Assembly: GCF_032362555.1 (NCBI RefSeq)
Contig: NC_083535.1
Location: forward strand, 7,068,001-7,132,000
DNA length: 64,000 nt
From: Amyelois transitella
Taxonomy: Eukaryota > Arthropoda > Insecta > Lepidoptera > Pyralidae
Reading direction: 5' to 3'
The first letter of the stretch is position 1. Each line of letters opens with the position of its first letter. Below, in pieces: positions 1 to 63,400 of this stretch. Below the pieces are notes generated by a model, which saw nothing but the letters and a program-made list of their open reading frames with translations, was not told where the DNA came from and did not search any database. The position numbers and the translations under genes were made by a program.

Positions 1-3000
1 AGTTGATTGAATATCTTTCCATACGAAATGGTGGTATTCTGTATGTCTTCCATATCTAGGGTGTTAAATGGTGCATCGTTCCTGGGAAATTTTGTTGCTA
101 TATAAATGTATTCCAATAAATAAGTACTGACATTAAACCCCAATCATTCAATTTACACTTAAATTACTAACCATGAGTGATACAAGTCAATCCACTCTTT
201 AGACGATTTCCATAAGGATTGTCTAAGTTTCACATCATTTATAGCTTCATCCAGTGCTTCCATTCTCGCTGGCGGTATCTACCGATATAAGTTATATTAC
301 ATAATCATAACAACACAGATTAAAATCGCAATCAATTTATTTTTTACACTAGCTGTGTCCGCGACTTCGTCCGCGTGGAATAGTTATTTGGGGCATCATT
401 GAAGCCCTCAAAGATGAAGAATTTTCCCCGTTTTTTTCACATTTTCCATTATTTCTTCGCTATTAAAAGTTGCAGCGTGATATAATATAGCCTAAAGCCT
501 TCCTCGATAAATGGTCTATTCAACACAAAAATAATTTTTCAGTTTGAACCAGTAGTTCCTGAGATTAGAGCGTTCAAACAAACAAACAAACTCTTCAGCT
601 TTATAATATTAGTATAGATTTATGAGAAAATAATAATGTAAACAGAATCGCGCATACCTAAGTCAACTTCAGCTAACAAGCAAGTTGTCTACGCTGTAAC
701 GAGGTACCTACTCGTATTGAAAATCACCTTGAATATTTTCTGCCAGTCGCGTATTTGTTTCTCGCGTGCCGAGCAAGCAGCAAGTTTCTCCGCTAAATCA
801 TTGAGGGTTTCCATCACTTTCTCCATATCAGATTTTTCATCATACAGCCACGGCGCCTGTCGAATTTTGGGGTATAGGTAGATAGTGCAGAGATTAACGT
901 AGATAGGTACACTTAACAACATAAATAAGTGGCCCGAGCCCAAAATTTGACAAGATTTAAAAATATCAATGAAATCCGATTTGGTCAAATAAGTGCTTTT
1001 CATGTTAAAATACTCTTTCCTTTGATAAAAAAAATATAAACAACAATTTGATATGAAAAAAAATCTGATTTCGGTTAAATCCAATAAGCATAATCTTTAT
1101 ATATTTGAAGTTTTTTTTTGGTTTGGTGAATACAGCCCTCAATACTTACGTACTCACTACGAATTACAAGCATATCGAAAGCTATTTTCTGACCGAGACC
1201 CCCTATTCGCACTTAGCTAAATCGACAATGCGTTTTGCATTTGTTTTTTAAACCTACTAAGTATCATCATCCACACATGCTGTGAAAATATTCCAAAAAA
1301 AGTTAATTTTCCGCTACAGGGTAGGCTAGACAGTTAACAATTGCATGACTACCAATAATTTCTTCATGGTAGTAATGGTAGTAATGCAAAGCAATCTCAC
1401 CGCGACTTCGTCCCTAAGTTTGTTGACGTCCATCATGAGATCCATGATGTCTTTGCCGATCTGACTGGCGAACAAGCCGGCTAGTTTCGACCTCGTTTCC
1501 AGGCGAGCGTCCACGTTGGTTCGTAGAGTGCCTAAAGCGACACTCAGACCTGTGTGGAAAATACATGCAGATGCAAATCAATCACATTTATAATATTTTA
1601 TTACCAACTTGCTAGCAAACAAGCCGGCTAGTTTCGACCTCGTTCCCAGGCGAGCGTCATCGTCATTTCGAGGAGTCACCAAACATTCAGACCCGTGGGG
1701 AAACCCCATTAATTACATATTTACATATAAGAGGTCCAATATTATTTAGGGCAAAATTTATAATGAACCATCACTGAGACACCCAAATCCAAGGGTTACT
1801 TCAATTAATTTACAAAACATAAAATAAAATTTTCTACGAAGCCTTTCAGCGAAATAAGAATTTAGTTCCTGAAGTGCTACTCAAGCTCTGAGCATTGGAA
1901 AATTGCATTACGTAAGAAAATCTTCTTCAAACATTTATTTGTCGGGCCGGCGCATTTTAGGTATATTTTTTACATTTTAGGTAGGTATATTTGGGGAAAG
2001 GCTATTATGGATACTTAGTAAGTCTGTAAGGTGTAGGAACGATTTACATCGTAACTACAAAATAAAAAACCGGCTAAGGGTGAGTCGGTGAGTCTTTCGT
2101 ATAAACGAAAGAGTCCGAAAGGTCCTTTGTTCATGCAAGTCATTAAACGTTAGTGTCTTTTATGTAAATTCAGTAAAGAAGCGTATTTTCTACACGATGA
2201 CATCCAAAGCAAGACAAGTCGATTACAGCGAGGCACACTCTTAAGTATTTCTTAGATCGTCACGTTCCTCTTAAGAAGTTTCAGTTCATATTTGCAATGG
2301 AAAATCTATGCATCAACACGACCAAATTCTTATTGTATTTTTTAAACCTATGTTAAAATATAGTTTTTATGCACGTTTTATTTACTATACCTATCTTTTA
2401 TTAGTTAATATAACTTGAGTATTCACTGGTGTTATTGATTTTCATTGTTTAATAAAAATTTTTGGTTTAATATGTACTTAGGTACTATTTAAGGATCGCC
2501 GTTCATTAGGTAAGGAAGACCATTTGAATAATTAAGGTACGTCAAAAACTTATACTAACTTCTATCGGATTAGTCCCAGTTGCATCCTATCTAAAAGAGG
2601 TCTCGGCGTCCATCTTTTCACCTACACACAATCTGAGAGTGGATTATTAAGGTTTCTACTCGAAACGATTTGTCTGAATACCGCGACTCTGCACCATCAC
2701 CTAAAGTATAGTTTGCAATTAAATTTATCTACCAAACAAAAAATCCTTTATTTATACTTACCCAAATATTCAGTCATATCATCAGGTGGTATGGGAATAT
2801 TGAACTCTCCCATGAGATCATAGAGTTCCCTTAGATACTCCAGTCTTTCCTCGAGGCCGACCACTCTGCCTTCGAGCCCGTCCATCATGAAGTTGAAGGC
2901 AACTAGTTCACCCGCTGTTTCTGGCTCTTTGCTGATGTCGTTCGTTATGGCATCTATACCCTCCAGGATTTCGTCTATGCAGTTGCGCGCGATGCTGTAA

Positions 3001-6000
3001 ATTTGCCACGGTTAGATATTTCAAGATATTACAACTGTACTGCCCCGAACATAGACTATTCAAAATACTGTCTAATATTAGTAGTTCCAAATAAAGAAAA
3101 CTCACTCTGGGGTAGTAGTGGATACCACATCAAACAGCCTCCTAGGCTGCGGCCTGAACAACTCTTGGAATGGACACAAGCACAAGAATATCATCCCGAG
3201 CGGCTGGTAGCTCACAACATCCTCTATCTCATTTATTTGCTTGTTAAACTTCTCGCAAAGTATCCTGAATTGCATCACATCTCTCTCTTGTTTTATAATA
3301 TCAATGTTCATCTCGTGAGCTTCTCTAAAATTGTCCATGAAGCCATTCATGCGTTTAAGGAAAAGCCACACACAGTCGTATGCGTTTTGGATTGCGAAAG
3401 GTATAAAAGCTATTTCGTCTAGCATTTTCTTGTCCTGATTCATTAGGAAGTACAAGTTTGGCGATACTCCTGCTGACCATTCCACTTGCTTGCCCATAAT
3501 TGTTGGTTGCACGAAAATCTGCAGAGATTCCTCATTGAGATAGTTGTGGAAGGTCCTCACGTATTGATCCCAGTAGCCCGTGATTCGCTCCATGTACGTC
3601 GTCACTACCTGTTGACTGGGATTCAGTTCGACCTCGCCACTAACTTGTACATAAGCATCTACTTGGAATAGAGCCCACTGCAATAAAAATGTCTCATTAT
3701 CATTCTCAATCATGTCAATATTTTCTACCAAGAGTCAATTAAATAGAGAAATTTATGAATTAGTGTTTATGTAGTTACTAACCAGTGGCATATAATATAC
3801 TTAATTAAAATACATATGATGTATATATATATGTTTGCTCGCATCATACTCATATCATGCAATGGTTAGTTTAATCCTTTACCTTGCAAGTTTCAACAGG
3901 TCTTGGTATGACTTCAAGCACTTCATCAACTTCAGTGCCCTCCAGTAAGGCATTTTCTGGCGTGAATTCCACGTGCTTTCGAAACATTTCCGCCATCATA
4001 GAATTGGACCGCTTCGTGAGACGATAGAGCATGTAGTTGGTCATGTAATCGATTTGTTTGATGAAACTGCAGATAAGACAGACAAAATCTGAGGAAAATT
4101 TTATCTTTATTCCATAGCTTTTGTTGGAACTTTGCTGTGTGCTTGTACAAACCAAAAATCAGTGCAACTAAAATTCAAGCGCTGGTCATTATTAGACGGT
4201 TGACAACAAAAAAATCTAAAATAATTTTACATCATGATGACCTGGAAAGGCAGTATGTTGCGGTCTTCGAACACAAAATCCTGCTGGAACAACACAGTAT
4301 GGACAAATATAGAATCTCTTACGCGGCCAATCGTTCGCAGTACTTCCTCTTGTTCGCCTTCTCCGTGTAAGACATGCCTCCAGTTGGCTTCCCCCGGATG
4401 ACCTGGAAGGGCGGTATGTTGCGGTCGTCAAACACAAAGCCCTGCTGGAACAACGCTGTATGGCAAGCCTGAGTCACCACGTCTAGAACCACCGCCCGGA
4501 ATTCAAATAGTTTCTCGCGAATATATTCGACGCGTTTCATCTGAAGTCGTTATAAATAAGGTATTATATTCTAATGAGGTACGTAAGTAATAGGAAGGAT
4601 ACTGACATTTTAAAACTAAGGTGTTACTGATTTTTGGCGTTTAAAAATATTTAAGCATACAACTGTAAAAATATTTTGAATGAAAAGAATGATTGTATCT
4701 AACTCTAATGTAAAAATCCCGCGTGTCCACTCGCTCGTCGCAAATCAATAATTGGAATAGAATCATTTTAATTTCGGTAAACTTAACTCAATATAAGCGA
4801 CCGCTACATGGATTTCAAATACTTAGATTTTAATTTTGGTGGTCTATCTACTTCTTGTCGCTAAATCTACTTCTAAACGTGCGTTAAATATCAGAAATGT
4901 GTCACCTGCACTTCAATGAAATAGAAGAATGCCGTATCCATATCTCTGGACAAATCGGCAAAGGTTTTCATGTACATTTCGCAGCACATGGCTTGTACAT
5001 TCAGTAAAGCCTTCGCCAACACGGGGGTCAGAATGAATAAGTTCTTGGCAAGCTTATTGCGTAATTTGCTATACTTCCGGAAAAGTATAGACTTACGCCA
5101 CACATAAAAAGCTTTCCAATATCTGTATACTTTGAAAAATTTGATCTAAAATAGAACAAGAAAATGTACATAAGTATTAGATATTTATAGAAACTAGATC
5201 GCGCCATGAATCGTAAAATCTGTATGAGAATTTTCCATGCACATACAGATTTTAAAGTTCATTTTCTGGAAATTTTATGGAAAACAATCACGAGATAAAA
5301 GTTAAAGTTAATTTATTTGTTAATAGCTGTTGCCCGCGACTTCGTCCGCGTAAATTTCGAATTTTTCCGCGTAAACTTATTTGCAGGCAAACTCATGCCT
5401 TGAGTTCATTCAAATGACGATAACTAATTTTTTAGTTAACCGATTTTGATGAAACAAACTTTAAATGCTTTCCTGAGTTAAAAAAAGCAATTGGTGAAAG
5501 TTTTAAGAAAATCGGTTTAGTACTTTCGTAGATAAGCGTAATCATACCATACAGACAGACAGACAAGAAATTAAAAAAAAATATTTTTGCTTTCTATTAT
5601 TCATTTTAAGTGTCCATCCATTTCAATTAAAAAAACTAAATGTACAGACAAAATATTTTTACTGTTTTATTATATGTATAGACTTTTTCCTTAAAATTAT
5701 TTGATTTTGATTTGATTTGATTTTGATTTGATTGAGCTAGTCTTTAGATTGAACTAAAGTAAGATATAATGATATTTGTGTGAGTTCTATACATATGTAT
5801 TAAGCTTAAGAATGCAATAGGTAGGTAAGTAAAAATCTTACGTCAGTAAGCTTGACAAATATCGTATACTCTTGTTCCCAGTCCGGCAGTTTAGTAAATA
5901 CCATTTCATTGGTGTAGTGCGTCACTCCACACGGGCTGATTGTGAGATAATTCTTCTTATCAATACCTTCGTATGGCACAACACTAGATAATAAATAAAT

Positions 6001-9000
6001 ATAAGTTGTGTAACAGTACACGACAAATAGTTGCTTTTTCTAAAGCCGAGCTAACGACATGGCACGAATAGCCTGCGTTAAACCAAAAAGTCATTAACTT
6101 CCGTTAAGAACCTACATGCTAAATATCAAGTTTCTAGACCCACCGGTTTGAGCTGTGCGTTGTGTGTCAGTCAGTCAAACAGTAATGGAAGTTTTATGTC
6201 GTCGAAAAATAGTAAACAAGAACTTTAACGAATCCCATTATTTGGCTCGGTGTTGGGGTTCGGTTAAACGGACTAGATAAATAAATTATATAGTATTTAT
6301 AAAATTCTGTGTTCAGGTGCTAGGGGCAACAAATGTATTCAAAATATAGGCGTAAGCGTTTGCCAAAACGTCTACCAAATGAAAGCTGACGAAATAGGTA
6401 CTTTCGTTGTCCTGATGTGTATGCAGCTTCATAAAGTAATTTGAATAGTAAAATAGGTAGCTATTATAATGTCATTCAAAGAATTAAGGTTTTATTTTTG
6501 TGAAAAAAAACAAAGAAGAACCTAGATTAATAGAAGCTCATACGTACTTAAGGTAATACGGGGTGAAATAAACGTTTTCGGGATGTACTGCGTATATCAT
6601 ATAGAGGAAGCCACAGGATGGATTTTTCCTCACATATTCTATTACTTCTTTTTGTGAGGCCACCTCAGGTTTGACCTTCAAAGGATCACTGGTCACATAC
6701 ATCTCAATATTTTGATCACTACTTGGTCTTCTTGGTTCAATCTTTATCTGAATTTTCTTCTTTTTCTCTTTGACTGCGGAGAAGTGAGATCCATAATTAA
6801 CATAGATATTCGCAGATTTTTTTTTATTTCTGCTAATGATATGTTTTAAACGAAAAACATGCAAGAAATATTATAAACTAGTTGACGCCCGCATCTCCGT
6901 TTTCGTGTTAATGGAAATACAAAGGTTAAGATTATTAAATTAACTCAAATTTCGGTACATATTACAAAGTAGCTGGTCCCATTGGCTTCAACATCACATG
7001 ATCCAGGTCATCCAATTTTTTTTCCCAAAGAAACTGCTCATCAGTTTGAACAAATTTTGTCAAGACGTCTTTTCCATAAATCGGATGATTTAGCTGGTCT
7101 ATAATGGTTCTGCATCGGGTGTTCCAGATCTTCGATTTTTATACGCTATCGGAAAATGCTCATCAGGTTGAACAACTTTTGTAAAGACGTCACTTCGATA
7201 TTTCCTATAGTTAAGCTGAGTTGTTATGGTTTGATATCAGCTGTACCAGATTCCAAAATAAATTATACCCAGTGCCAGTATAATATATGATGGCCAGGTA
7301 TAAGAACTATACAACAAAAAAAGTTTAATTCAAATCCGTTTAGTAGTTTCGGAGATTATCGTGTACAAACAAACATACAAACAGACAGACTTTATTTTCA
7401 AATTCATACTCGGTTACTATAAATAATTGTTTGAAAATATACTAAATGTACATACAACATTTTTTTACTGTTTTATTATATGTATTGATGATCTAGCTGT
7501 AATCCACGACATTGCCTGAGATAATGATATTATTGGTGTTGCTATAAATATATAGTGAGTGAAGGTCATACCAAGGGTGTCTAAATTGATAGGCTCCAAT
7601 TGTTTATCTTTTCTTTCTTTCCGGTAACGCTCCTGTTGGGCTGCATCAAATCCAGTCTGTGAAAGAAATGATATGGGATAGTGAAATTTTTTTAAGTGTG
7701 GCGACGTCTCTACTCCACAAGTCACGAAAACAAATCACGCGACTTATTAGTCAAAAACAGCGTAATGTCTAAATCGCGCAAGCAAAGATTTCACGGATTA
7801 GAGCATAAATACAACCTCCTCCGAAAGGTTGAACCTCTACCTTTTGGTGGCGGTCTAGCCGAATCATCCTGCTGCCACAGTATTTAATCCCAGAGGAAGG
7901 TCTTGGTTGAGCAATTTTATAAAGAGTGTTGGCGTCAAGTAGCCGGCTTGGCTTACAATTAAAATGTTAAATAGAAAATAAATGAGAAAAATTATCCAGA
8001 ATAAAGTCTTTGCGCCTGATAATAGTTTAAAAGGGCAGTGTGGAAATCCAGTAATGGTAAAGACTGTTTTTATATGTGTCAATGAAAAGTACCTGGTCGT
8101 AAATAAATTTATACAGGACAAATTACACTGATTGAGTTAGCCTTGAAGTAAGTTCGAGGCTTGTGTTACTACTATAATGCTAGATACTAACTTAACTATA
8201 CTAGATTTTATAATAAATACTTATATAGATAACATCCAAGACCCAGGCCAATCAGAAAAAGTTCTTTTCTCATCATGCCCTGGCCGGGATTCGAAACCGG
8301 GACCTCCGATGTCACAGACGTACTTGTATGTAAGTGTACTACCGCTGCGCCACAGAGGCCGTCTAAAGGTCGGTAAGAAAGCATTTACGAAAAGGCCCTA
8401 CTTGTTCCCATATTCGTCATAAATAAAATCCAATGAAAAAAGATGAAGATGGTGTACCTACCGGCAAAAGAAACCGAACAGGAAATAAAAAATTATGAAT
8501 TTAATTATTACATACTTACCAATGGCTCTGGTTGTTGTTTCACAAACTCAATTTTATCCAACAACTTTCTGTGAGGCAAATGAAATGGTATATCCCTGGA
8601 TTTTCTATAAGACAAAATAATATTATATTAATAAATAATTATTCACAAAAAAAACGCACGTGTACTTTACAAAAATGAATCACAAACAGAAAAATATTTA
8701 GGTACATCTGCGTGCATTGTAAAGTATGTATATTATTTGTATAGGTAATTAATTTAGTATCTATAAAAATGTTTAATACATACAGAATTTTCAAACAATC
8801 AAGATCAAAAATAGCTCATAGTCTGTGTGTATATAAAAACAAGCAGTTAGTTACAAATTTGGGCATCAATCAACAGAATCCTATTCTATTACGAAATATA
8901 AAGTACCTCGAATAATACGTGGGCACTTTGCGAATATTTCTTTGCAAAGTTTCTATAGCAGGCAAAGTTGTGGCTGGTGACCTACGTCGCGAATTTCCGT

Positions 9001-9007
9001 TCATCAT
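1..9007 (-). CDS. DNAH6: Axonemal dynein heavy chain, DNAH6 type (5' 14 exons, tail only; partial)
   Basis: Axonemal dynein heavy chains are ATPase motors of cilia and sperm flagella; DNAH6 belongs to the inner-arm group. I assembled 14 exons, all phase-consistent: 8907-9007, 8520-8604, 7572-7656, 6548-6773, 5842-5983, 4906-5145, 4323-4540, 3883-4066, 3106-3677, 2762-2994, 1401-1549, 728-856, 172-278 and 1-81 (runs off the left edge). They give about 850 residues, all in the tail (N-terminal stem); the AAA+ motor is outside the window. Family evidence comes from blocks I recognise from vertebrate DNAH6: GFLYMIYAVHPENV (near residue 140), ISPCGVTHY and WEQEY (180-205), YWKAFYVWRKS (220), KNLFILTPVLAKALL (248-262) and MSYTEKANKRKYCERL (350-365). 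The start is the first of two Met codons; the first exon is short and basic. The gene is divergent from the RASGEF1 gene. Exons 7 and 11 have degenerate partial copies in neighbouring introns. Assignment to DNAH6 rather than DNAH3/7/12 is from recalled family sequence, not a search. Confidence 0.85.
351..624 (+). repeat. Lepidopteran dispersed element with CCGCGACTTCGTCCGCG core
   Basis: The element starts near actagctgtgtccgcgac and ends at the tail caaacaaacaaactcttcag followed by ttagtataga. Its head and tail recur in the window: heads at about 5331-5570, 31520-31557 (inverted) and 41660-41850, and a tail at 30875-31080 (inverted). Such copies are very common in lepidopteran genomes and are variously annotated as Helitron-like (Lep1) or LINE tails; I cannot decide which. 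This copy lies in a dynein intron. Confidence 0.7.
1607..1706 (-). pseudogene. Degenerate partial copy of dynein exon 11 (exon echo)
   Basis: The stretch 1618-1658 matches 1471-1511 of the real exon (1401-1549) with one mismatch in 41 bases. Weaker similarity runs on through the exon start and splice acceptor (1690-1706 resembles 1544-1560). The copy is in direct orientation in the intron just upstream of the exon. The acceptor AG is changed to GG and the frame hits a stop (TGG TGA) soon after the former exon start, so it cannot act as a substitute exon. It looks like a decaying tandem duplication. Confidence 0.8.
4237..4303 (-). pseudogene. Degenerate partial copy of dynein exon 7 (exon echo)
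   Basis: Bases 4237-4303 align without gaps to 4397-4463 inside exon 7 (4323-4540), with about 8 mismatches in 67 by eye. The copy is in direct orientation, in the intron just downstream of the exon. It keeps the exon's reading frame (HTVLFQQDFVFEDRNILPFQ against HTALFQQGFVFDDRNIPPFQ in the exon) and then meets a TAA about three codons on. No convincing splice sites frame it. Confidence 0.85.
5331..5575 (+). repeat. Dispersed element fragment (CCCGCGACTTCGTCCGCG family)
   Basis: The head agctgttgcccgcgacttcg is followed by the characteristic body and ends near the cagacagacagaca run. It lies in the dynein intron between 4906-5145 and 5842-5983. A related, more decayed stretch with the same cagacagac-type end lies at about 6885-7395. 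Confidence 0.65.
8177..8365 (-). repeat. tRNA-derived SINE (lepidopteran type)
   Basis: Read on the minus strand, the head carries a box A-like stretch (TGGCGCAGCGGTAGT) and a box B-like stretch (GGTTTCGAATCCC), then a body that contains TTTTCTGATTGGCCTGGGTC and an AT-rich end. This is a SINE with a tRNA-like promoter head rather than a tRNA gene: the spacing between the boxes is too long and the 5' and 3' halves do not form an acceptor stem. A degenerate relative is at about 28300-28440. Confidence 0.7.
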
Positions 9008-10575: not shown

Positions 10576-10766
10576 GTAAGATACATTTTTTATACATTAT
10601 TCTAATAAAACAAACAACTTTCACCAACCGTACCTGTTTGCCTTTTCCAACAGGACTCTATGAGAAAAGTAAAAGTTTATTTTATAAATTTATTTACAAA
10701 TAAAACTGAATATATCCACCTAAATTTTATAGGATTAAAACGAATTTAGGCGTAATAAAATGGATA

Positions 10767-15800: not shown

Positions 15801-18216
15801 AGCTTACATTAAGCGGACGTGCTCTTATATTTCTATCTTTCTAAATCAACTCGTTATCCTTCGAGGAGCCCCATATGATAATTACTTTTGGAGTGAAACC
15901 AATGCATAGTATTTATTCATTATACTGTCCTGTTTGCGTCTTCACCTCTCTGAAGAAGACCCCGGGGTGCACCTATTACCACGATCCTAGATGGGTAAGT
16001 CCGGATCTTACCCATATTGGATCATGATAACAAATTTAGATGTATGAGTGAGTGTATAACCGTAAAAGCATCAATTAGCTATACATATAACTAATGTATC
16101 AGAAACGAGTAATAAGTATCTACATCACGCATTGAATTTGATCATATTCATCGCGCTTTTCTATTCTGACATTTAAACCGTTCAACTATCGATGCTCACT
16201 ATTTACATTTATTTACATTTTGATTTTATTTATATTTATTTAAATGATATATACATTTGGAATGTTAAGTATAAAAAATGCGAAGAGTTAGCCAGTATAT
16301 TTATTTTTAACAGTCCGCAAAGAGCAAATACCGAGCGCGCGTGATCGAGCAGTGGGTGATGACGGCGCGCGAATGCTTCAACCTGGGCAACTTCAACTCG
16401 CTGATGGCGATCATTAGCGCGCTCAACATGGCCGCCGTCACCAGGCTGAAGAAAACGGTAACTTTTATAAAGGCATTTATCAAAAAACTAGTTTTTGAGT
16501 TTCGTTACAAAGAAGAAAAAATATTTAAAATATTTTCTCTTTATATTAATTAACCTTTTTTTTTTTTAAATCTTGTCAAAATTTTGTCTGTGCCTTAACA
16601 CGAACCATAAGCCACAGACGTTCCTATGTTCCATTACAGATCGTTTGAATACTTTTCACTAGGAAATAACATGTAAATCAACTACAACGCTTTTTTTATA
16701 ATGTCTAAAGGGAAAAGTTTTAGTCCATAATGAAGTATTATTATATCGCAGTGGAGTCGCACGTCTGCCGTTTGTGGGCAGCAGCTGAGGCAGCTGGAGT
16801 TGTGTGTGGAGCCCAGTGGGAACCATGCAAGGTGAGTATATAAATAGTTCATGAGATTCACAATTTATTATAGTATACACTAAACCGACTGCCAATTAGG
16901 GAAATCTAAATCATGATGGTTACGCGAAACCGCGTATATATTAGTCGCTTTCACGACATTTTAATTTCTGATGTACTAGGAATTTCTTTTCTCACAAACG
17001 TTTTCTTCATTTAAATCCTCTTGTGGGTAAGTATGTTGGACAATTAGCACCAATTATTTCTGTGTCAGGTATCGCGCAGCGTTGGCCGCGGCGCCGACGG
17101 AGACCGCAGTTCCACTGTTGTCGGTCACGTGCCGGGATTTACATTTCGCCAACCAGGGATCCCCCTCCAAGTAATAATTGTTAATTTATTATAATATTAT
17201 CACCAACTTTTATAGTTCTTAAGGTATGGTTACCAATACACGTTACACGTAAGTTAAGCATACCAGAACAATTTCAATTGGTGTAATTCATAAATACTAG
17301 CTGTTGCACGTCAATTAGTTCGCCGTAAAAGATCACAAAAAAGCGGAGTTAAGGGGAGGGAGTGAGAAATGGTAGTAGAACAGTCTTCATACAAAAATCA
17401 TTCTTTTTAATTTTCTGGAAAGAGAGAGTAAGTAACACAACTCCTTTTCTGTACACACTGTTTGCAAAATGTCATGAAGATTGTTTAAATGTGAAAGAAA
17501 CTTTTATAGATATAAAATTAGTATGTAGGTATGTATACTATATAAGAGTAACATTCATAGTACGGATCTATTATTGCAGTGCCGTGTGGTTCCCGGTACC
17601 AATCCAAAAACGATAGGACCACTCCATCTCTTTCCCATGGATGTCGTATAAGGCGACTGAAGGATAGGCATATTTGGGATTCTTTTTAGGCGATGAGCTA
17701 GCAACCTGTCACTATTTGAATCTCAATTCTTTCTTAAAGCCAAATAGCTGAACGTGGCCTATCAGTATTCACAAGACTGTTGGCTCTGTCTACCCCGCAA
17801 GGGATATAGACGTGATTATATGTTTCTATTATTGCAGACTGGCCGGCAACCGCGTGAACTTCGAGAAGTGTTCGCTGCTAGCCCGCCATGTGAGCTCTCA
17901 GCTAGCGTCGCGGCGGCTGACATCAGACGACGCTCCCGCGAGCCCCCCGCCGCCCCCCCTCGCACCCGTCTGGAGGTTCCTCAACGACCGACCGGCCCTC
18001 ACTGACACTGGTGAGTCACTTGGTTGTATGAGAAGTGTACCGTTACTAGTTCGCCATATAAGCTCTCGGCTAGCTAGCTATCTAGGTATCTTGTTTACGA
18101 TTTATATTTATTAAATATTGAATGTTTCAGCATTGGAACTCACGTCGTTCGAGCGCGAGCCCCCTGTTGACCATTTGGAGAAAGAAAGATTGAAACGTCT
18201 ACGCGGAGCTACTTAA
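12835..18216 (+). CDS. RASGEF1: RasGEF domain-containing family member 1 (RASGEF1A/B/C-like)
   Basis: A guanine-nucleotide exchange factor for Ras-family GTPases (vertebrate RASGEF1 proteins act on Rap2). Twelve coding exons, phase-consistent: 12835-13008, 13249-13368, 13446-13700, 13868-14013, 14128-14163, 14690-14834, 15103-15360, 16314-16457, 16752-16831, 17069-17170, 17838-18010 and 18131-18216, giving 572 residues. Residues 115-290 form the N-terminal RasGEF/REM region (FTFTFLLCSRLFVKPHELL; WTSMFPYDFRDDR; ALEQYEESL). The CDC25-type catalytic region follows at about 300-530 (RNLEAYADWFNRLSYLVATDI; ARECFNLGNFNSLMAIISALNM; RLKKT; NRVNFEK). The C-terminal half of the catalytic region (16752-18010) is GC-rich and more divergent, with a run of prolines (SPPPPPLAP). 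The start is the first ATG of the exon's open frame; its residues 20-45 are Pro/Ala-rich and disordered. Confidence 0.88.
14128..14163 (+). other. 36-nt in-frame microexon of the RASGEF1-like gene
   Basis: A pyrimidine-rich tract and CAG precede it and a consensus GTAAGT follows. Its 36 nt keep phase 2 on both sides and encode a 12-residue insert (SHSHDGRALALT before a Lys made across the junction). Skipping also keeps the frame, so it fits a cassette exon within the N-terminal RasGEF region. Confidence 0.65.
17577..17825 (+). repeat. SINE, gtgtggttcccgg-headed family (long copy)
   Basis: It runs from ccgtgtggttcccggtacca through taggaccactccatctcttt, a middle ggcgatgagctagcaacctg block, to aagggatatagacgtgatta. 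It ends within 15 nt of the splice acceptor of the penultimate RASGEF1 exon. The longest other copy is at 46437-46675. Confidence 0.75.
18032..18075 (+). pseudogene. Degenerate partial copy of RASGEF1 exon 11 (exon echo)
   Basis: Bases 18032-18075 match 17865-17907 in the exon 17838-18010 (shared blocks gaagtgt, ctag, cgccat, agctctc, ggctag or agctag), with one single-base indel and roughly 80% identity by eye. It is in direct orientation and starts about 20 nt after the exon's donor. Confidence 0.65.
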
Positions 18217-21200: not shown

Positions 21201-23149
21201 AAATATTACTGAATCCGAATACCTGTAATTCAACGATAGGTATAGTGTTTATTTATGTTGATATTATGTGTATTGTAATAATTATAAAATTCAGATACTT
21301 AAAATATTGAAACCTGTGATTTTTGTCTTAGTGTCCCAAACATTCCAATTGTTTACTTACTTTTATTGTCGTAATATTGTTACTTTTTCAAACATATGAC
21401 TGAATTTACTATAAATAAAATACTCAAAGTTGACAAAAACCAACAAAATTTTATGTATTATAATTTATATTAAAATAGATTGTAAATGGTATACAAAAGT
21501 TTCAAGTTAATAGAATATTTACTTGTTACTGTCATGAAATCATATATACGTCGTCCTATCTAAGGAACCTAATTGTAAGACCAGATGAACCGTCATATTT
21601 TATAATAACTGTTTTAATTTATCAAAGTTCATTTATGTCTTTCAGTCACCTTATTCCCACCGATTCCGTTTTTCGGTGACTTTGAATAAACTAGGTTTTG
21701 TATTTATGTTATATAAAATATTAATATATTTTAATTCAAACACGTTTCAACAGTAACATACGTAAAATTTCTTACATGTCACCTTGCTTATTCGGACAAT
21801 GCATAAAGAATGCACAATGAATAAAATTTTTTAATGTAGTAAGAGATTGATTTTGATTTGTTGGAGAAGAAATTTGGTTTTAGTCACCAGTGCTAATTTA
21901 ATATTATCTATATGAAATGCAAATAAAAATCGTTGTGGGACAAATCGATTTTAAATCATTTAATCTAGGCACTATAAATAATTATTTAGAGGTTATATTT
22001 TAAGAGCTCAAATATTTTAAATAAATCTGCGCAGATATTACCAATATTTTTTTTTATTTCAGTATCATCTTTTGCACATTTTAAAATAATATGCTAGTAT
22101 TAGAAAAAAATCAAACCATTATTAGGTATGAGAGCCATAATATTGTTTTTCATGCATTGTACTTTTTATATCGCCTTCTGGTAAAATAAGCGTTTCAGTA
22201 GAACTCAAGTCCTTAATTGCATGATTTTCAATCGTTGCCGATGTGGTTTTATTTGTTCGTCACTAAATGCAGTTACAAAGGTACTAAAAGGACCATCTAA
22301 ACGAAGTACTCTGGTTATTAAATCCTATTTGATAGCATTTTTGATTAGGTATTTCTGTGTAAGCAAAACATTTACCATAAATTATACTTAACTCGCTTCC
22401 ATCCTTAATATTCAGTTTAATTACTTCGTTGGACATATATAATTTACAACTGAATGGATGATTTAAGCAGGTGGTGACATTAACAAATGTGTGCGTTACT
22501 AGTAAAAGTTTAAATATTTATTAAGAGTGTGGTATATTGTGAATTGTTCATAATATACAAGTGTTCATTTAATTATTCTAAGAATATGTGTACTTTCAAT
22601 AAATTTATTTGATGTTCTTTACTGTCGATATGATGTTTTTATTGTATATCTAAACAATATATATATACCTAATCAAATCCAATAAAATGTATGAATCATC
22701 TTATTGTATTTTTATTTGACTGAAACGACATTAAGACCTAGGGTAATAGTTATGAGCCGCAATATTGATATAATTGCTTTTGGTTGCAGCAAGATAAGGG
22801 CTTTTGCCCGCATTGCCATAGGAAATTTCAGAATTTGTGACATAAATTTTTGCATCAATTATATAGGTACATCTCTTTTATTCTCATCAAGTCTTTTGTG
22901 GATATTACTGGTGAGTTGAATAAAAATTTCAATAGGGTATTTATTTACTTATAATTTGTAAATCATATTTCTCATTACATATACATAATTATCAGTAGCT
23001 TAACTATAACTTATTTTATAATTACTGAACACGTTATAACTTGGTTTAACATAAAACTGAGTCAGCGCTCTTAACGTTTCCTTTTTATTCCATTCTTTTC
23101 TTTAAAATTATATCAATACTAAACTAGGTTAAATTAATTAAAATAACTA
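18217..23149. other. Gene-free interval: 3' flank of RASGEF1 and intergenic sequence
   Basis: AT-rich. The 3' UTR of the RASGEF1 gene must begin here, and several AATAAA-type signals occur (for example near 19058, 20090 and 21410). No exon with convincing family features was found. Open frames at 18817-19032 and 22704-22919 look like chance. A short strong hairpin lies at 20458-20492. Confidence 0.5.
20458..20492. repeat. Short inverted repeat (hairpin) in intergenic DNA
   Basis: The arms gtgggacacctag (20458-20470) and ctaggtgttccac (20480-20492) pair at 12 of 13 positions around a 9-nt loop. Confidence 0.6.
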
Positions 23150-43741: not shown

Positions 43742-45066
43742 TACATTCAGTCAGAAAAGTATCGGGAATGGATTATTTATTTATGGTTCCAAATTCAAAT
43801 TTTTGTTTTTTTTGTTGTTGTTAGATTGGCACAACTGTTTTCCATTTTGGCGCGGAGTTTGAGTTGCATCTGTTGTTTACATTAAATACAGTGCTATTTT
43901 TAGTTATATCATATCTAGTGTGTATTGCTAATTTCATAATGGATAAAAACATCGAACAAAGAGTTTGTCTTAAATTTTGCATTGCCAATGGAATATCGTG
44001 TTCGGAGTCACTGAAAATGTTACAGAAGGCTTACGGTGAATCGACTTTATCAAAAACTCGTGCTTATGAGTGGTACAAAGCGTTCAAAAGCGGTCGAGAT
44101 GTGATGGAAGATTTGCCTCGCTCTGGTAGGCCATCAACGTCTGCAACTGAAGTTAACATCGCAAAAGTGAAGGAAATTGTGACTGAAAATCCTCATTCAA
44201 CTTTGAGAGAGATAGCCACCGAACTTTCTGTATCTCACGAGTCGATCCGTACCATTTTAACTAATAATTTGGGTATGAAACATGTTGCCGCTCGGCTAGT
44301 CCCAAAAGACCTGAATTTTTTTCAAAAACTCAATCGCATGAGAGTCGCTGAGGACATGCTAGACCGAGTCAATTCCGACCCAACATTCATGAAACGCATT
44401 GTTACTGGTGACGAGACGTGGGTTTACGAGTTTGACATGCAAACTAGTCAACAAGCTTCGGAGTGGCGCCTTCCAACTGAACCGAAACCGAAAAAACCAC
44501 GCCAAAGTCGTTCAAAAGTCAAAGTCATGTTGACTGTTTTCTTTGACTATCGCGGTGTTGTGCACTCGGAATTCTTGCCGGAAGGTCAAACGGTAAATAA
44601 GGAATATTATTTGAGGGTTATGCGGCGTTTAAGAGAGCAAATCCGACGAAAAAGGCCAGATTTGTGGAAAGAAAATTCTTGGATTTTGCACCATGATAAT
44701 GCACCTTCGCACAAGGCCATCATTGTGAACGAATTTTTAACCAAACACTCAACAAATACCATCGAGCAACCACCATATTCACCAGATATGGCTCCAGCCG
44801 ACTTTTTTCTTTTTCCTAAACTCAAATTACCACTTCGTGGCACCCGTTTTCAATCGGTAGAAGACATAAAAGAGAATTCGCGGCGAGAACTGACCTCAAT
44901 TCCGGAAACAGCGTTTAAAAAATGTTTTGATGATTGGATTATTCGTTGGCGTAAGTGTATCGTTTCTAAAGGAGCATATTTTGAAGGTGATAAAATAAAT
45001 TTGGATGAATAACAAACAGTTTGTGTATTATTGATCTTTTCCCGCTACTTTCTTGACAGAGTAGTA
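43742..45066 (+). mobile_element. Mariner-type DNA transposon, apparently full length
   Basis: It is bounded by TA dinucleotides (43740-43741 and 45067-45068) and by imperfect inverted repeats of about 28 bp (left TACATTCAGTCAGAAAAGTA; right end, reverse-complemented, TACTACTCTGTCAAGAAAGT, both followed by nCGGGAA). Length is 1325 bp. It carries one uninterrupted transposase gene. Confidence 0.88.
43939..45012 (+). CDS. Mariner transposase (D,D34D), intact frame
   Basis: 357 residues, the usual length for the family. The N-terminal half is the paired helix-turn-helix DNA-binding region with the GRP linker (RSGRPSTSA, residues 61-69). The catalytic triad is complete: Asp158 in VTGDETWVYEF, Asp253 in HHDNAPSH and Asp288 in YSPDMAPADFFLFPKL, with 34 residues between the last two, the mariner spacing. 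The WVPHEL-like motif is changed to RLVPKDL. The protein cuts and pastes the element at TA sites. The frame continues 25 codons upstream of the chosen Met, but MDKNIEQR is the family-like start. No stop or frameshift was seen, so the copy may be recent or active. Confidence 0.92.
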   Translation: MDKNIEQRVCLKFCIANGISCSESLKMLQKAYGESTLSKTRAYEWYKAFKSGRDVMEDLPRSGRPSTSATEVNIAKVKEIVTENPHSTLREIATELSVSHESIRTILTNNLGMKHVAARLVPKDLNFFQKLNRMRVAEDMLDRVNSDPTFMKRIVTGDETWVYEFDMQTSQQASEWRLPTEPKPKKPRQSRSKVKVMLTVFFDYRGVVHSEFLPEGQTVNKEYYLRVMRRLREQIRRKRPDLWKENSWILHHDNAPSHKAIIVNEFLTKHSTNTIEQPPYSPDMAPADFFLFPKLKLPLRGTRFQSVEDIKENSRRELTSIPETAFKKCFDDWIIRWRKCIVSKGAYFEGDKINLDE

Positions 45067-45189
45067 TATCTCAAAAATCAATCCCGTCTATCATTTGCTC
45101 GTGATTTGCAATCGCTTTACCTTATATCTTTCTTATGTTATAAATACGAATTTCGAGGATCTGGTAAATAAAACAGACTTTAGGTACCT

Positions 45190-46173: not shown

Positions 46174-49100
46174 TTGCAAGCACTGGGGCAACTATTCTTC
46201 TCTTCATTATGTCTGGCGCAGTATTTCTGCATTATCGACTTTCTGAGAGGACTGCCGCTTCTTCTCTACGTTAGAATACTCTACTTTCACAGTGAGTACA
46301 CTATCAATATACAAAATATAACGTTTAAAAAACTAAAAATAAACCGTAGTTAACAGATTTAAATCCTTACATTATTCTGTTAACTACGGTTTATTTTCAT
46401 TCAGTCATCTAACATGTATTTCTACTATTATTCTATTCGTGCTGCGTGGTTCTCGGCATTAGTATGAAAAAGAATAGGACCACTCCATCTCTTTCCCATG
46501 GATGTCGTAAAAGGTGGCTAAGGGATAGGCTTATAAACTTGGGTTTCTTCTTTTAGGCGATGGGCTAGCAACCTGACACTATTTGAATCTTAATTCTATA
46601 ATTCAGCCGAACGTGGAGCCTTTCAAGACTGTTGGCTCTGTCTACCCTGCCAGGGATATAGACGATATGAATAAATCTCTACTTTCAACTTTCAGATCCG
46701 GGACCTTGCGGTGTTAGAGTAAACATCGGCGAAGTTATAGACGGCATTGCTAACCAAGCATTCGTCTTGATAACTCAAGAATCAATGCCAGTATTTCGGA
46801 CATTTCTCATAAACTGCATCAGCTTAGGGCTCAGTGTGCCATGGGTCCTTTCAAGCATATTTATCATCAGTGAGTTTTAATACTTATCATATTCGTGTTC
46901 ATTCCTTTAAAGGACACTCTGGCAGCTATAGAACTTAAGTTTCGCAATTTTGCAGTGGGAGGGGCGCGGAACGACAAATCAAAGGGAGTGCGATTTCCTT
47001 GGATCATGACGACGCTAACGGTTTGCGCCCTAGACTTAGTGGCTACTGTCATTTACGCGAATGATTCTTTCCATACTAGGGTAAGTATTAACATCAAGAT
47101 CTTGAATTATAATCACATCAAAAAGAATCACAATTAGATCGTTCACGAAAGGTCAGGTCTGGTTCGGCGTGATATTAATTTAGTCTATAGTCTCATGTCA
47201 AGATATAATGGAAATATTTTTTTATTTAAAAGATCAGCTTTCACTTCACATCAAATCACACAGTGCTTATCAATGAGGTCAATTTCGTCCCCGATTTTCA
47301 GACATTGTCCGACATAATGGAGTTCGTGAACGGCGTGGCCAGCGGACTGGGTGGTGCCAACCTTGACACGAGCTGGGCAGCTTGGATCATGGTGTTGGTG
47401 TACTCCCGCCTGGTGGTGCTGTTCGTGTTCAACCTGCTCCTGCTTGTCTTCGTCATCGTGGACTGCAATGCGGACCGGCGGGTGGAGGTCGACACTGGTG
47501 TCGTGAGTGACGTTTACAAAGTTAATCCATACTGACATTATAAATGCCAGAGTAACAGTCTGTGATACAATTTTATGCCATAACTACAGAACCAATTTGG
47601 ATGTACTTGATATTGATGGTTTGATATAGATAGCTCGAGGGCCTGGGAAAGGCTACTTTTTACCACGAGAAAACAAGGCAATAAATATGACATCTGATAT
47701 TTGAGATTCTTCATCTTTTCGTGATTATGCATTGACTCTGTGTAGGGTACCTACACACGTGAGATTTTAAAACAATCTCAAGTTTTATTTTTTATTTACG
47801 TTTTATTATCTGCTCAAAATAAATATTTTGTAGCACAAACAAGTCAAACCTTGGATCAAACAATCTTTACTAGCCATTAAATGTGAAAGTCAACTATTGC
47901 CAGCATGAAAATATTTTATTCCAGCAAGTAGAAGCCCCTACAATATCCACACAGACAACCAGCGACAAGGACTTGGACACGGACAGTCTCACAAGCGAGC
48001 CCCCGAGGATCCCGCGGCCTTTTCTGAGCCGCTCCTTCAGGAGAATGAAAGAGTTTTTGTTTAAGAAACCTTCTCCGCCCCCACAAAGGACTACGTCTGT
48101 CCCGGAGTCGATAAACGAATCGCCACACAGGTAGTTACTGCCAAGTCAAAGTATATTTCGTCTTTTTCATTTTCAAATAGGTATTCTCTATCTTCTTTTA
48201 TAAAATCACGCCTCCTTCTCTTTTCTTCTCTCCATCTGAATCTCAATTCCACTATTGAACCATACCTACAGCTGAACGTGGCCTTTCAGACTGTTGTATA
48301 TTTAATTTTCAAGATATCTTTGAATTTCATTAAAAAAGATTTCTTTGCATAATTAAGTATACACTTTTCTGTGTTCGAATTGATCTTGTTTTTATTTTGG
48401 CGTGAAGAAAATTCTGCATTTTAATTTGTGGCTCCCAGCATATCACATAAGTTTAAACCTTTATTGCGCTTATGTTGGAGTTAAATTTAAAATTACTGTG
48501 GGTATGTTTTTGTTGCTAAACCCTGCCTAGTGAAGTACAATTTTATTTACTTCTTGATCAGGTCACTACATGCGCAACATGTCAACATCGACAAGAAGAC
48601 CGTGAATTTCCCCGAAAATTTACTGTCACTGCCTCAAAGGCTCGAAAACATGATCGCAGAACAACAAGTAAGAATTATAATTTATTTAACCACGTTAATG
48701 TTTCCTACATTTACTGAAATAAGTGTGAAATAACTTTGATTACTTACTACTTTTATCAGTTGGTTGATTTTAAGAGTATAAAATTTTCTTTAAAGAGCTG
48801 CGCCATGTAATTACAGCACTTTGTATCCAACTGTGATTGTGAATTTATACTCTTATTAGTCACCTCTCTGGAAAGAAGTCCGGGGGTGCGCTAGTAAGTA
48901 ATAAATTATATTTTCGGTGCGTACATATATTTCTGATTTTAGCGGAGACTAGACAACGCAGTGATCGACACGTCTGGGCGGCGCAGCCCACCACGAACAT
49001 CGCAGTCTATGCCGCATCTCAACCTTGCCTCCGCTCAGGATAACCACGGGTAACTTTAATACAATACCTACTTCAAAAGTAAACTTACTCAATATATATT

Positions 49101-54800: not shown

Positions 54801-56584
54801 AATGATATTTACTTCCGAATTCAATCAAACTTGTACCTATCTCAATGAAAAATTCAAGAACCAAAGAATACCAATGTTTGCTTTTATATGACTATGTGTA
54901 ATTTTCCAAAAATTAAACCTTATGTGTCTGTGTTCATCACAGTGTGCACATATTTTATCCTTGCTTTTTATATTTATTACGTTAAATCTGTTTCCTTCTT
55001 ATAAATATAGATATATATGGACATTTTATTAAATTTTACGCCCTTACTTTTCAGTCAACCAAGAAGAATTGACGAGCAATCAGAAAATTCGTTTCAACAA
55101 TTCAGAGCGTCAGTAGCTTTTTTTATTAGTTATCAAATCTGTTTAAGTAACTATTTTAATCTTCAGAAATCCTGGTAGTTATATCTTCTACTCTTTAATC
55201 TTTTTGCATGTTCTATAGAAATAAAAAACTGAGTTTTACTCATTGTGTATGTAGCCAATTATTTTATTTATTTTTTTGTTGCAGACAGCCGAAAAGAAAT
55301 GATGATCCATGGCAAAACGGATCAGAGAGCACCTACGCGCCGTATAGAGGGCGAGTATAATGCAAACATTTAAGATTATACCTACATACATATTAACAGG
55401 CTGTATGGTAAATTGCGTTTCATATTTAAAGACGTAGACATGAACATGATTAACTTTATGAAATATAAAACCAACAAAATACAGTGCGTATTTTGTTATT
55501 TTAAAAGATAAATAAAGTCAAAATAGTGCATAGTCTCAGAATGTTTGGACACTTCCAGCGAGGCGGCTTGCTATCGGCCCCGCCCGCGCTTTCAACTTGT
55601 CTGATTTCCACACTTCTTTTAGTTGGTTGATTAGGTAAAATTTTCAGCCCCTATTTTTTTTCTAATTATTTGGAACGAATCAAAAACTGAATATGCAAAG
55701 CAATTTAACAGACATCCTTTATATAACAAATTTATAATATGAATAGAAATAATCAAGATTGTTACTAGATTGACCCAGAATCTAAAAATGAGGTTATTGC
55801 CTTGTTTAAGCATCATGAAAAAATTTGAGATTCGATAACGATGCATCTTCGTAATTGAAAGTTTAACGTAGCAACTGTTTCCGCAGGCCCCAGGTGAACC
55901 CTATGTTTGTGAACGATGAAGACCACTCCCGCATGCCAAGCCGTGAGCCGCCACGTTCAGAATATACAAAGTATGTGTACATTCACTGTCTATACTTGAC
56001 AAATATCCATATTAAATCTGCGCATTACTGATTAACTCTGGATTCTATGCGGCGATGGGCTGCAACGTAAATCTGAATTTCATCACTTAGACATACAGCC
56101 TTGGCCAAAAGTCTTAGGCACCCCCAACTTTTATTAAAATAATGAAGTTAAACTACTTTTATAACCCTGGCAATACATTAGAAATAAGTATTTATTCATC
56201 GTTTCAATAGTAAACATGCATTGTGTATTTTTATGGGGTGCCTAAGACTTTTGGCCAAGGCTGTACTTCTGAACGCGGCCTTTCTGTCTTTGTTCTGTCT
56301 ATCCCATAGAGGATAAAGACGTGATTATATTTATAATGTGTTACAGCCCATCATACGAACGCTACCCTTCGCACCACAACCACCAACCGTCGCTCGCATC
56401 GCGGCCTTTCTCCTACCTAGAAGACATCAAGCGGCAGCCGGCACTCAAATCCCCCAGTCCGACCAGGGAGCCCCAATGGCCGCGTGACCCCTGGGACGCG
56501 CAGGCGCCCCCCGTGCCAGCGCCAGATTATAGCCCGGAAACACCGAGACGGCTAAAGTCTGCGCTTAAATCTTCATTCATGTAG
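51836..56584 (+). CDS. Four-pass membrane protein with proline-rich tail, gene B
   Basis: Ten phase-consistent exons: 51836-51919, 52895-53030, 53409-53537, 53892-54031, 54273-54449, 54735-54772, 55055-55108, 55285-55354, 55894-55970 and 56347-56584, giving 380 residues. Membrane segments: GLTIVLSVVYITLYSLAV (with the end of exon 1), FVMACLSLTVSILCLLLAIG, YCYIVSIILSIAIDLAATI and FNIIFISLLIFYLVEF. The first extracellular loop has two Cys (NNCDAG and QDDCPH). The tail is Gln/Arg/Pro-rich (LEDIKRQP, APPVPAPDYSPETPRR) and ends SSFM. Several tail exons are very small (38-77 nt), and one donor is GTCAGT, so alternative splicing of the tail is plausible. Architecture and the intron after the second membrane segment match gene A, suggesting an old tandem duplication. 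Family not recognised. Confidence 0.7.
56050..56330 (+). repeat. Decayed SINE interrupted by a MITE
   Basis: SINE-type sequence flanks the MITE: gcggcgatgggctgcaac before it, and gaacgcggcctttctgtc plus ggataaagacgtgattatat after it. These match consecutive parts of the SINE copies at 17.6 and 46.4 kb, so the MITE inserted into an existing SINE. Confidence 0.65.
56096..56263. mobile_element. 168-bp MITE of Tc1/mariner type
   Basis: Long inverted repeats (left end cagccttggccaaaagtctt followed by aggcaccccc; right end its complement, ggggtgcctaagacttttgg followed by ccaaggctg) surround a short AT-rich core with no coding capacity. TA flanks both ends (56094-56095 and 56264-56265), the Tc1/mariner target. 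The arms are almost perfect, indicating a recent insertion. Confidence 0.88.
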
Positions 56585-56628
56585 AATTGATAAATAAATG
56601 ACTAAGTGGAAAGTAATTCTTGTACATT

Positions 56629-56800
56629 TGGGATGCGCAAGCACACCCCGCGCCAGCTGATTATTGCCCCGAAACATCAAGGCGGACCGTCTACACTGAA
56701 CTCTTCCTTTTTATAATATCTACAATTAAATTCCTAAATAAAATGGGCATTCTAACGTTTTGGAACGCGTAGGCTTTATAACCCAGAAATACCGGGGGAT
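56629..56800 (+). pseudogene. Two degenerate copies of the gene B terminal coding segment (exon echoes)
   Basis: Bases 56629-56686 resemble 56492-56551 in the last coding exon (tggga-gcgca-gc, cgccag, gattat or tgattat, cccgaaaca, cggcgg-like blocks) with small indels. A weaker third copy at about 56759-56800 keeps tgga-cgcg-aggc, ataacccagaaataccg. Each is followed by an aaataaa-like stretch, as is the real gene end. They lie after the stop codon, in direct orientation. Confidence 0.65.
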
Positions 56801-57410
56801 CAAAAATAAAAGTGTAAACTCTATAACATGAATGACGAATTACCTGCATTATATCGGAACAATAAATCAAAAGTATCGCTACTAATCAAGAACTCCTATT
56901 TTTAAGAAGTTGAAAATGCAAGAAAAGAAAAAAATGTTTTGTTATCATTTATTTATGATCATGTAACTAAAAGTATGAAATATAAATAGTAAGATTTTAT
57001 CGTTAAAACAGCCTTTATCTAATTTAGTCTCTGAATAGTACATGTATTGCTCATATCTTCCGACCATGGAAGGTGCGTTACAATTAATGTTTAGATGGAA
57101 AATTATTATTGCAACAGAATTGCTACATCGAAACTGAACACGTTGTTTTTGCCTTAGCCTACTTATATAACTCAATCGAATTTACCAAAATAAAGTATGA
57201 ACTAATAATTTACAAAATAGTTCATGTGCCATGATAATAATGAGCCTGATAAAAAATACTAAAAATATAAATTTAAATAATTGAACCAAATGCTAGACTT
57301 TGAAAAGGCACAAATATTCACCAGGTTCACTTATAGATATACATTATGTACACTATACACATACATTCAAAAAAATGTTATGTACAATTAACAATAAACT
57401 AAAACAAATC

Positions 57411-60400: not shown

Positions 60401-63400
60401 CTTGCCGACGTGGAGGTAATGCGCGTCGCCGGTCGCGCGGTGCAGGAAGTACGTGGACTCGAGGAATTCCGGCCGGAGGGGGTGGTGTCCCCAGTGGACC
60501 TTTGGCATATTTATAATTATGCATACATACATAAAATCACGCCTCTTTCCCGGAGGGGTAGGCAGAGACTACCTCTTTCCACTTGCCACGATCTCTGCAT
60601 ACTTCCTTCGCTTCATCCACATTCATAACTCTCTTCATACAAGCTCGGCGGTTTCGGGTACTTTTGACCTGACCCTTTACCAGGACGTCCTAATATCTTA
60701 ATTATTATTCCTATAATTATGCATCTTTCATCAAAACTTAAAATATTTTTTTATAAATTTTTTTCAGTACCCTCAAAATATAGATAACATTATTCAGATC
60801 AGTGACCTCTGTTTTAAAAAGAAAAGTGTAATCACCTGGAAGTCTGTGGTGAAGGCTTCTGGTATGAAGGTGTGTCGCTGCATGACTTGGTAGAGCATCT
60901 CGTGCGTCTCCACAGCGGGCCGAACGTCGCCCAGTAACACCTGGAGACCAGGCCAGAACGCCTGCAACGCGTCCATGAAGTTCCGCGACTGAAGGTGCGG
61001 CCTGAAAGGAAAACTAGGTAAGAAAAACAATACTAAATTGGTAAAGCATCAATGTAGTTACGGGTCGTAAAAGTGGCATGGATAGAAAAAATTGGGACAA
61101 AACATAGAAACACAACCCTCTAAACCACGCGTACACATAGGACCTGTTGGGGTGATTTGATTAGCCGTCGTTGGTACCTTTTTGAAATAAAATTCAAATT
61201 CAAAATTTTATTCGTTTTTATATACACTCCATTTCACTTAATAATTGTCATGTCTTTTGTTTTGCTTTCACAACAATGGTTGATTTCAAATAAATTACTT
61301 AATACTAAGTTTACTGCCGCTTTCAAAGCGTCAGTGCAGAAGAAGCGGTAACAAACTGCACTGCAGCATTGCACTAAAACAATTCATATAAGAAAACCTC
61401 TCAACTGCGAGTATGACAGGCTGCTGATGTACTTCTTGACCCTATTGTAATGACGGTTGAACTTCACGAGGTATTTCTCGTCTCCTAACAGAACGCCTTG
61501 AATATGTTTTCCTAGTAATATCGGGAAAGCAACTAATGTTAAAGCATTCTTAGACAACTAAAATACCTGTGCATATGAACGGCGAGCATGACAGGACCCC
61601 TGCTGATGTACTTCATGACCGCGTTGTAGTGACGGTTGAACCGCGCCAGATACTTCTCGTCCCCTAACAGAATGTACGCCTTGAGGCAGTACTCGTAGTA
61701 GGAATCGATGCCCGCGCCTACGCCAGAGTCTTTGCGGACCCAGTCCCCAGAGTGGATGTTGATCACTGTGCCCATTAAATCCGATGTCCTGATAGAGAAA
61801 CAATATAAATGTAATGCGTAAACATTCGATCAACTAATATATCTGAATAAGTCACACAGATGCTTGGGTCATGCAGTAGTAATTAAATGATACCGTAGTA
61901 AAGAAGACAAAACTTTTAAAACGAAAGCTATTAGGCGGTCTTTTCACTAATGTGAAAAGGCGTATATGTCTCCTCTTTCATTTGATCTCTATGGTTAATC
62001 TAAGGCCCCGAGATAACGTTGGTTCAAAATGTTTATCGATACTGTTGGCTCTGTCTACCCCGTAAGGGACAAACCTGTATGTTTGGTACAAATAAGAGCA
62101 AGAGAAGATAAATCCGTTTATAATTAATTACCTATGTCTAATCTTCCACAGTCTGTCCATGGCTTTGTGTGCTTTCTGCTCGTAGATAGGGTTGCCAGTG
62201 AGCCGCGACAATGCCGCCATCTCCAGGATCATGGTTCCCGCGCAAGCGGTACACGTTTCGCGGGATTCCGACATCCCTCGGATGCCGTGTCTTAGGTTTA
62301 CCTGAGTAAAAAATTAATTTACCACTTTGATCAACTATGTACTACGTCCACCGATGTGAATCACACACACAATCCTACAAAACATGTTTAGATCCAGTTT
62401 TGAACAGATGGACATATTTGTTTGTTTCGTGCAAATTTTCAGCAGGATTGAGTCTATAAATTGTTGTAGTGTATGATTTACCATGTCGGAGAGAATGCAT
62501 GACATTTCAATACAAACAGTATTTTTAAAGACATGCATGTTTTGAAATTATAATTAGAGTAATGTTAATGATTATACCATTACCATTGTCACCGTCACTT
62601 TTACTTTATTTATTATTTCCGGTAATTATAATTGCATAATATGTAATTAATATATTTGCAAAATCCCCTAATGACACTGCATTATTCCCTTTTGTGTTAT
62701 TATCTATATCTACCTACACGTCCTTTTAGCTAGATGTTTATTGTGCTGGATGAAGGTTTTATATGCTGGTTTTATGTGTGCTCGATATATAAATCACTAC
62801 ATTAGACTAGGGAAAAGGAAAACTATTCCCAAGTAGCGACGTTCCAAAAACTTGTATTGTATACCTAACTTTTGTGTTATATGTATTGTAGTGATACAAA
62901 TTAATGAAAATTACGTTTTCTTATTCACAGTCTATCTTCTAATCAAAATGCCACCTATGAATGTGACAGCTGTAACTTTAATGATCCTAAAATTTAAGGA
63001 GCATAGGAGTAACTGTACTTACATTAGCATGAGGTATTCCAGTAGAAGTGTTGAAGGCGGGCAGCAGCCTCTTGCCCAGATCCTCGGCCATGGCCAGCAG
63101 CTCCCCGGCGTACCACTGCAGCACCGGAACTTCCGGCTGCAGGGACGTCGCTATCACGTGAGCTGACAGCAAACCCCTGGAAACATGAGCTTTCGTACGC
63201 CTGACTTTGGAACTGACGTTATCTTTAACTTCGACTCCTGTCGTACCTAAATCCCGATAACATCGAAAAAAGCCCAGGGCGTGACTTCTTACTATGATCC
63301 TGAATTAGGGTAAGTCATGTTTTGACACGAAGCAACTCCGGTGTGTCTTACGCAATCTTTTCAGAGGAACCTTACCTATGTTTGACAATGCGGTTGGTGA

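Follow-up and report, generated by a model that had tools for sequence, protein, structure and literature searches.

Degenerate partial copies of coding exons beside their sources in a 64-kb stretch of the Amyelois transitella genome

Are pieces of coding exons copied into their own surroundings more often than other sequence is? The question is raised by a 64-kb stretch of the 327-Mb, 33-contig genome of Amyelois transitella (contig NC_083535.1, positions 7,068,001 to 7,132,000; hereafter the window), in which a sequence-only reading had noticed five exons, in four genes, with short degenerate partial copies nearby (here called echoes) and had suggested a biased local process as their cause. 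Our self-comparison of the window shows these five source exons, each with a nearby direct partial copy where that reading had placed it, and similar pairs, coding and non-coding, occur elsewhere in the genome. We think it probable, at roughly two chances in three, that the echoes are ordinary short proximal same-strand duplications, their copies decaying neutrally, which are seen through conserved exons and involve no preference for exons.

Five exon pieces with nearby direct copies

Two of the pairs belong to the gene at the left of the window, on the minus strand, whose best match is axonemal dynein heavy chain 6 (DNAH6). The start of one exon (approximately 1401-1549), together with 11 bp of its acceptor region, forms the source at 1453-1560, and its echo (1601-1703) stands 40 bp off in the upstream intron. 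An internal part of the exon at 4323-4540 (source 4397-4466) is echoed 90 bp off in the downstream intron (4236-4306), where the similarity stops abruptly on both sides. On the plus strand, an internal part (17863-17906) of exon 17838-18010 of a RASGEF1-like gene, whose RasGEF domain exons lie upstream at 15.1-16.5 kb, recurs 123 bp off in the downstream intron (18030-18074); this is the weakest of the five. The fourth source, also on the plus strand, comprises the end of gene B's final exon and, beyond the stop codon, some of the 3' flanking sequence (56492-56605), and its nearly full tandem copy lies 23 bp off, 3' of the gene (56629-56737). Finally, part (61578-61700) of exon 61567-61788 of an EDEM-like gene on the minus strand has its echo 60 bp off in the downstream intron (61403-61517). 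This last gene matches alpha-mannosidases including EDEM1 and contains glycosyl hydrolase 47 and PA domains; the name EDEM3, taken over without proof from the sequence-only reading, is a label only. Searches for relatives of an EDEM exon (genome and viral contigs) and of a DNAH6 exon (viral contigs) confirmed none, and the single gene B exon scanned (47233-47520) matched no Pfam family.

The source pieces measure 44-123 bp and the copies 71, 103, 45, 109 and 115 bp, with spacings of 23-123 bp; all copies are in direct orientation and all are partial exons. We swept the window by comparing each 120-bp query with the following 420 bp, with 6348 far pairs as controls. Four of the echoes, with scores of 118, 110, 103 and 86, are far above chance in this blind sweep, and the RASGEF1 echo, at 51, is unremarkable by the sweep alone, since five of the controls score at least 51. 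The two highest controls (141 and 94), which exceed the gene B score, are probably dispersed repeats. When the comparison is made exon by exon, the RASGEF1 copy again scores 51 and none of the 82 reversed or inverted flanks reaches 40; at the protein level it scores 45, against a control-flank maximum of 40. Using a hand map of 41 exons in the window, which is approximate and in several places tentative, a direct copy with a score of at least 46 accompanies 5 of the 41 exons and an inverted or reversed one none of the 82 flanks. A protein-level search of 88 automatically predicted coding segments (172 flanks), which aligns within a single frame only, gave no clear new echo: eight same-strand scores were at least 38, seven of them from known echoes and one, of 38, beside a PDZ exon, compared with one on the opposite strand and one reversed. 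The PDZ pair 34002-34082/33645-33732 has a weak score of 39 and was left uncounted. The second copy claimed for gene B (56776-56841, plus strand, local score 27.5) is not established: of nine flank tests, the two that concern it gave P = 0.018 with the source and 0.065 with the first copy as reference.

Copies and sources are 75-89% identical at aligned sites. The 11-25% of sites that differ are distributed unequally among the five echoes, so that their ages are probably unequal too, much as the sequence-only reading had proposed. In the pooled echoes the differences run towards A/T in the copies (47 G/C-to-A/T against 16 A/T-to-G/C), and by codon position they number 15/136, 19/137 and 43/136, which is the way they should lean when the copy is unconstrained and the source changes mainly at silent sites. 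From the first two positions we estimate that the copies stand near a divergence K of 0.13. Parts of them still translate to source-like peptides, and gaps of four bases break the frame in the DNAH6 1601-1703 and EDEM copies.

Exon bias or longer visibility

The sequence-only reading had noticed no such copies on plain intron sequence, and the window itself contradicts it. A tandem pair of about 122 bp at 6992-7109/7113-7231 (in register, 7030-7129 and 7152-7251), with a possible weak third copy at 6940-7029, has no coding sign: it matches none of the Pfam families, its best PDB match has an E value of 1.1, and its differences fall evenly on the codon positions (9/8/9). The rest of the sweep consists of repeats within a glycine-rich coding exon (approximately 25.5-27.9 kb). 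None of the six window pairs, that is, the five echoes and 6992-7231, has a further place in the 264 kb analysed in all, and a genome query with window positions 1500-1800, the sole part of the window searched beyond the 264 kb, gave one match. As a separate observation, the 6992-7231 pair probably lies inside a DNAH6 intron, its frame is faintly protein-like, and it is possibly an old piece of a mobile element.

For comparison we took twenty 10-kb blocks of the same genome (L001 onwards in our numbering, every one on contigs C1-C4). Coding calls came from an automatic codon model, which had the window as its training sequence, overlooks some exons and predicts some false ones. Excluded before counting were the glycine-rich exon region (22500-29100), two transposon-like open reading frames (43825-45012 and 37659-38831), low-complexity queries and, as dispersed, 14 of the 30 direct and 15 of the 19 inverted families of the sample. 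Not dispersed here means without a further match in the 264 kb; low-copy mobile elements may therefore persist among the non-coding pairs, which would mask an exon bias. The 16 direct families that remained comprise one that is coding-sourced and 15 that are non-coding by the codon model, the latter found in 187 kb; examples are L002 7208/7326 (90% identity), L005 2563/2641 (76%), L009 3451/3635 (100%), L014 7015/7112 (95%) and L017 4306/4453 (75%). Seven of the 15 are weak, with scores of just 46-48, and since two reversed-control windows reach 46, some of these seven are chance matches. We also observed that L009 3451-3570/3635-3754 is a direct repeat of two identical 120-bp copies, spaced 184 bp and with no coding sign, which would be either a very recent duplication or an assembly error.

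Two further exon echoes were found, both in block L003 and in two different genes. One belongs to a CC2D1-like exon, whose own DM14 match is below the cut-off while those of two neighbouring exons are above it, and the other to a dynein light intermediate chain (DLIC) exon. The DLIC pair, situated at the edge of its block, falls beyond the pair sweep and was taken from an exon-centred scan of 59 segments, so it is not among the 22 direct sweep pairs.

A copy taken from an exon has an advantage in detection. In simulations its visible lifetime is 1.39-1.65 times that of an intron-sourced copy, and 1.5-2.0 times for older events. With weights of 1.4-2.0, 1.5-2.1 coding-sourced pairs are expected among the 17 of the sample, and two were found; at scores of at least 60 the share is 2 of 10, with 0.9-1.2 expected (P = 0.22-0.34). 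An echo accompanies 5 of the 41 window exons and 2 of the 59 scanned in the sample (Fisher P = 0.12). The detection advantage of exon sources, together with the choice of the window for its striking pattern, weakens the exon bias seen within it. An exon bias is unproven and the balance leans towards none. Of the biased local process that had been suggested, the recurrence of the copies stands and the preference for exons is not shown, the sample lying at its expected share although the window and the pooled data lean towards exons. The contrast between exonic and non-exonic rates is real inside the window, but outside it, after correction for detection, no exon bias is seen in the sample.

How the copies may have arisen

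In the favoured reading, a stretch of about 40-125 bp would give rise to a same-strand copy at most a few hundred bases away, through slipped replication or through break repair that copies nearby DNA. Copies landing in introns or beyond the end of a gene would be harmless and would decay neutrally. Those derived from exons are conspicuous because their source is kept by selection, so that only the copy decays; in an intron-derived pair both sides would decay, and the pair would fall below detection earlier. All seven exon echoes, five in the window and two in L003, are direct, as are 22 of the 27 sweep pairs that are not repeated elsewhere in the 264 kb (P = 0.0015), and such a preference for the same strand favours copying by proximal repair or by a slippage-like process. 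Gene B (length 114, shift 137) and the 6992-7231 pair (118 and 121) resemble nearly complete tandem units. In the four intronic echoes a duplicated flank was undetected (RASGEF1, P = 0.84; DNAH6 4236, P = 0.72; DNAH6 1601, P = 0.22-0.36; EDEM, P = 0.09), which fits better with copy-and-insert repair, or with tandem duplication followed by deletion. The junctions, inspected for microhomology, filler and deletion, are too decayed to read.

Several results weigh against a process blind to exons. Such a process should carry intron flank along more often than is observed, the simulated power to detect a 41-bp flank at K 0.13 being 0.79-0.97. The third-position excess (43/136 against 34/273) is somewhat above our rough neutral expectation, so some copies may have been coding for a short while. 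On the hand map the coding share of the five sources is 82-100%, and among 1252 purely non-coding window queries, with 6992-7231 set apart, direct similarity at scores of at least 28 is no more frequent than reversed, which makes the contrast between exons and non-coding sequence within the window real. Five of the six window pairs are coding-sourced, with detection-corrected P values of 0.0007-0.003 on the automatic coding map and 0.001-0.005 on the hand map at a weight of 1.6. When all pairs are pooled, in figures that contain the very window that raised the question, 7 of 23 are coding-sourced (P = 0.008-0.04), as are 6 of 15 at scores of at least 60 (P = 0.003-0.014) and 6 of 11 (P = 0.0008-0.002) in a divergence-matched class (score at least 60, identity 70-90%) that was defined after the rows had been seen.

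These excesses are what exon-biased local copying would produce, for example break repair templated on a nearby transcript or on open exonic DNA, which would leave sense-strand pieces mostly downstream. Sources nearly restricted to exons, two extra echoes in two genes of one 10-kb block, seven direct echoes out of seven and six of them downstream of their source all agree with it, and RNA-templated break repair has been reported in human cells (PMC12065846). Against it stand the sample, at its expected share and with 2 of 6 in the divergence-matched class (P = 0.11-0.16), and the downstream preference, which by itself has P = 0.125. The acceptor-side intron bases in DNAH6 1601-1703 indicate that the template was not spliced mRNA. 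We regard it as rather unlikely, though the most serious competitor, that exon-preferring copying seeds introns several-fold above the blind duplication rate, perhaps through nascent transcripts or exonic chromatin.

The other explanations we considered fare worse. Decaying tandem exon duplications, formerly or still alternative exons, might account for the source-like peptides and the third-position excess, and tandem duplication of exons occurs commonly in animals (PMC9013439). By eye, however, no copy spans an entire exon flanked by two usable splice sites, two of the sources (44 and 70 bp) come from inside their exons, and the four-base gaps break the frame in two copies; we rejected this origin, which seems improbable, on these grounds. 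When an intron is gained by internal tandem duplication of coding sequence, the echo of the exon edge comes to stand at the opposite splice site of the new intron. On the hand map none of the intronic copies is adjacent to the far splice site, and DNAH6 1601-1703 is about 1 kb from the upstream exon, so that this route, although described in Drosophila (PMC2891723), is very hard to credit and was rejected on the positions of the copies. An assembly artefact, from uncollapsed haplotypes or misjoined reads, had been offered as a cause and has hardly any likelihood for the five echoes, given the divergence of the copies and their lean towards A/T; nothing supports it for these five, and the near-identical sample pairs L002 7710, L009 3451 and L014 7015 could include some artefacts.

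If the echoes are blind duplications seen through conserved exons, exons act as slow clocks in which old local duplications stay visible longer than intron-derived ones, and exon-derived copies become a tool to measure the short-duplication rate of a genome. Self-comparison is then a trap for whoever infers an exon bias from it. If instead the pooled excess in the matched class is true, it would suggest that repair favours templates in exons, and the exon pieces seeded in introns would offer material from which new splice sites and alternative exons could form.

Other features deserve mention. In another dynein heavy chain gene (G000:C13:10091834-10092781) Pfam Dynein_heavy is matched three times (profile 43-115, 83-115 and 68-115) within 950 bp and with no internal stops, possibly reflecting additional duplicated or echoed exons. 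The sole inverted sweep pair in the window is a 36-bp inverted repeat (56089-56124/56235-56270, 94% matched) that lies upstream of gene B's final exon. The glycine-rich region holds, at 26668-27909, a long array of 33-bp units in a glycine/glutamine-rich frame with higher-order periods of 66 and 99 bp. The long open reading frame at 43825-45012 resembles what we take to be a mariner-type transposase, and that at 37659-38831 presumably a retrotransposon reverse transcriptase.

Comparison with known systems

The 'doublets' of Thomas et al. (2004) are reportedly short local paired duplications with exact matches of 25-100 bp and a same-strand preference; they resemble the present pairs as short local copies, but are said to be exact, whereas those described here are degenerate. 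The repair-mediated proximal duplications of Pace et al. 2009 (PMC2671141) are likewise short copies near their donor (proximal mean 162 bp), and for most of them the sections consulted give neutral divergence, as in the reading we favour, with donors that include introns, untranslated regions (UTRs) and some exons. Unlike ours, they were detected in vertebrates through interrupted transposons, with a mean separation of 1.2 kb that, according to their authors, is possibly caused by the method; the gaps here are 23-297 bp. Our exon echoes are direct, and the one complete exon copy described there is inverted. Exons are seldom involved there: Table 2 of that paper assigns 8 of 824 donors to exon classes and 16 to UTR classes. 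The six window pairs agree with proximal or short local duplication in being sequence that, within the 264 kb, is otherwise single-copy and was duplicated at a distance below 5 kb.

Exon-like stretches within a gene's own introns, as found here, are also described by Exonize (PMC12343006) and by Ivanov and Pervouchine (PMC9013439), which focus on whole exons and, in the parts consulted, contain no comparison of exon and intron sources. The latter reports for flies that 0.08% of exonic bases have homologs outside annotated exons at 80% identity; our sample gives 92 of 12,858 predicted coding bases with an echo (0.7%), and as the methods differ the comparison is a hint only. Among the literature matches listed, none dealt with partially copied exons in moths or butterflies, which is not proof of absence. 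In its survey of 20 eukaryotes, Exonize finds full-exon events in 4-7% of vertebrate genes, while the genes with partial, inter-boundary and intronic events are significantly more numerous, so that copies of exons in introns, such as those of the window, are of a known and common kind.

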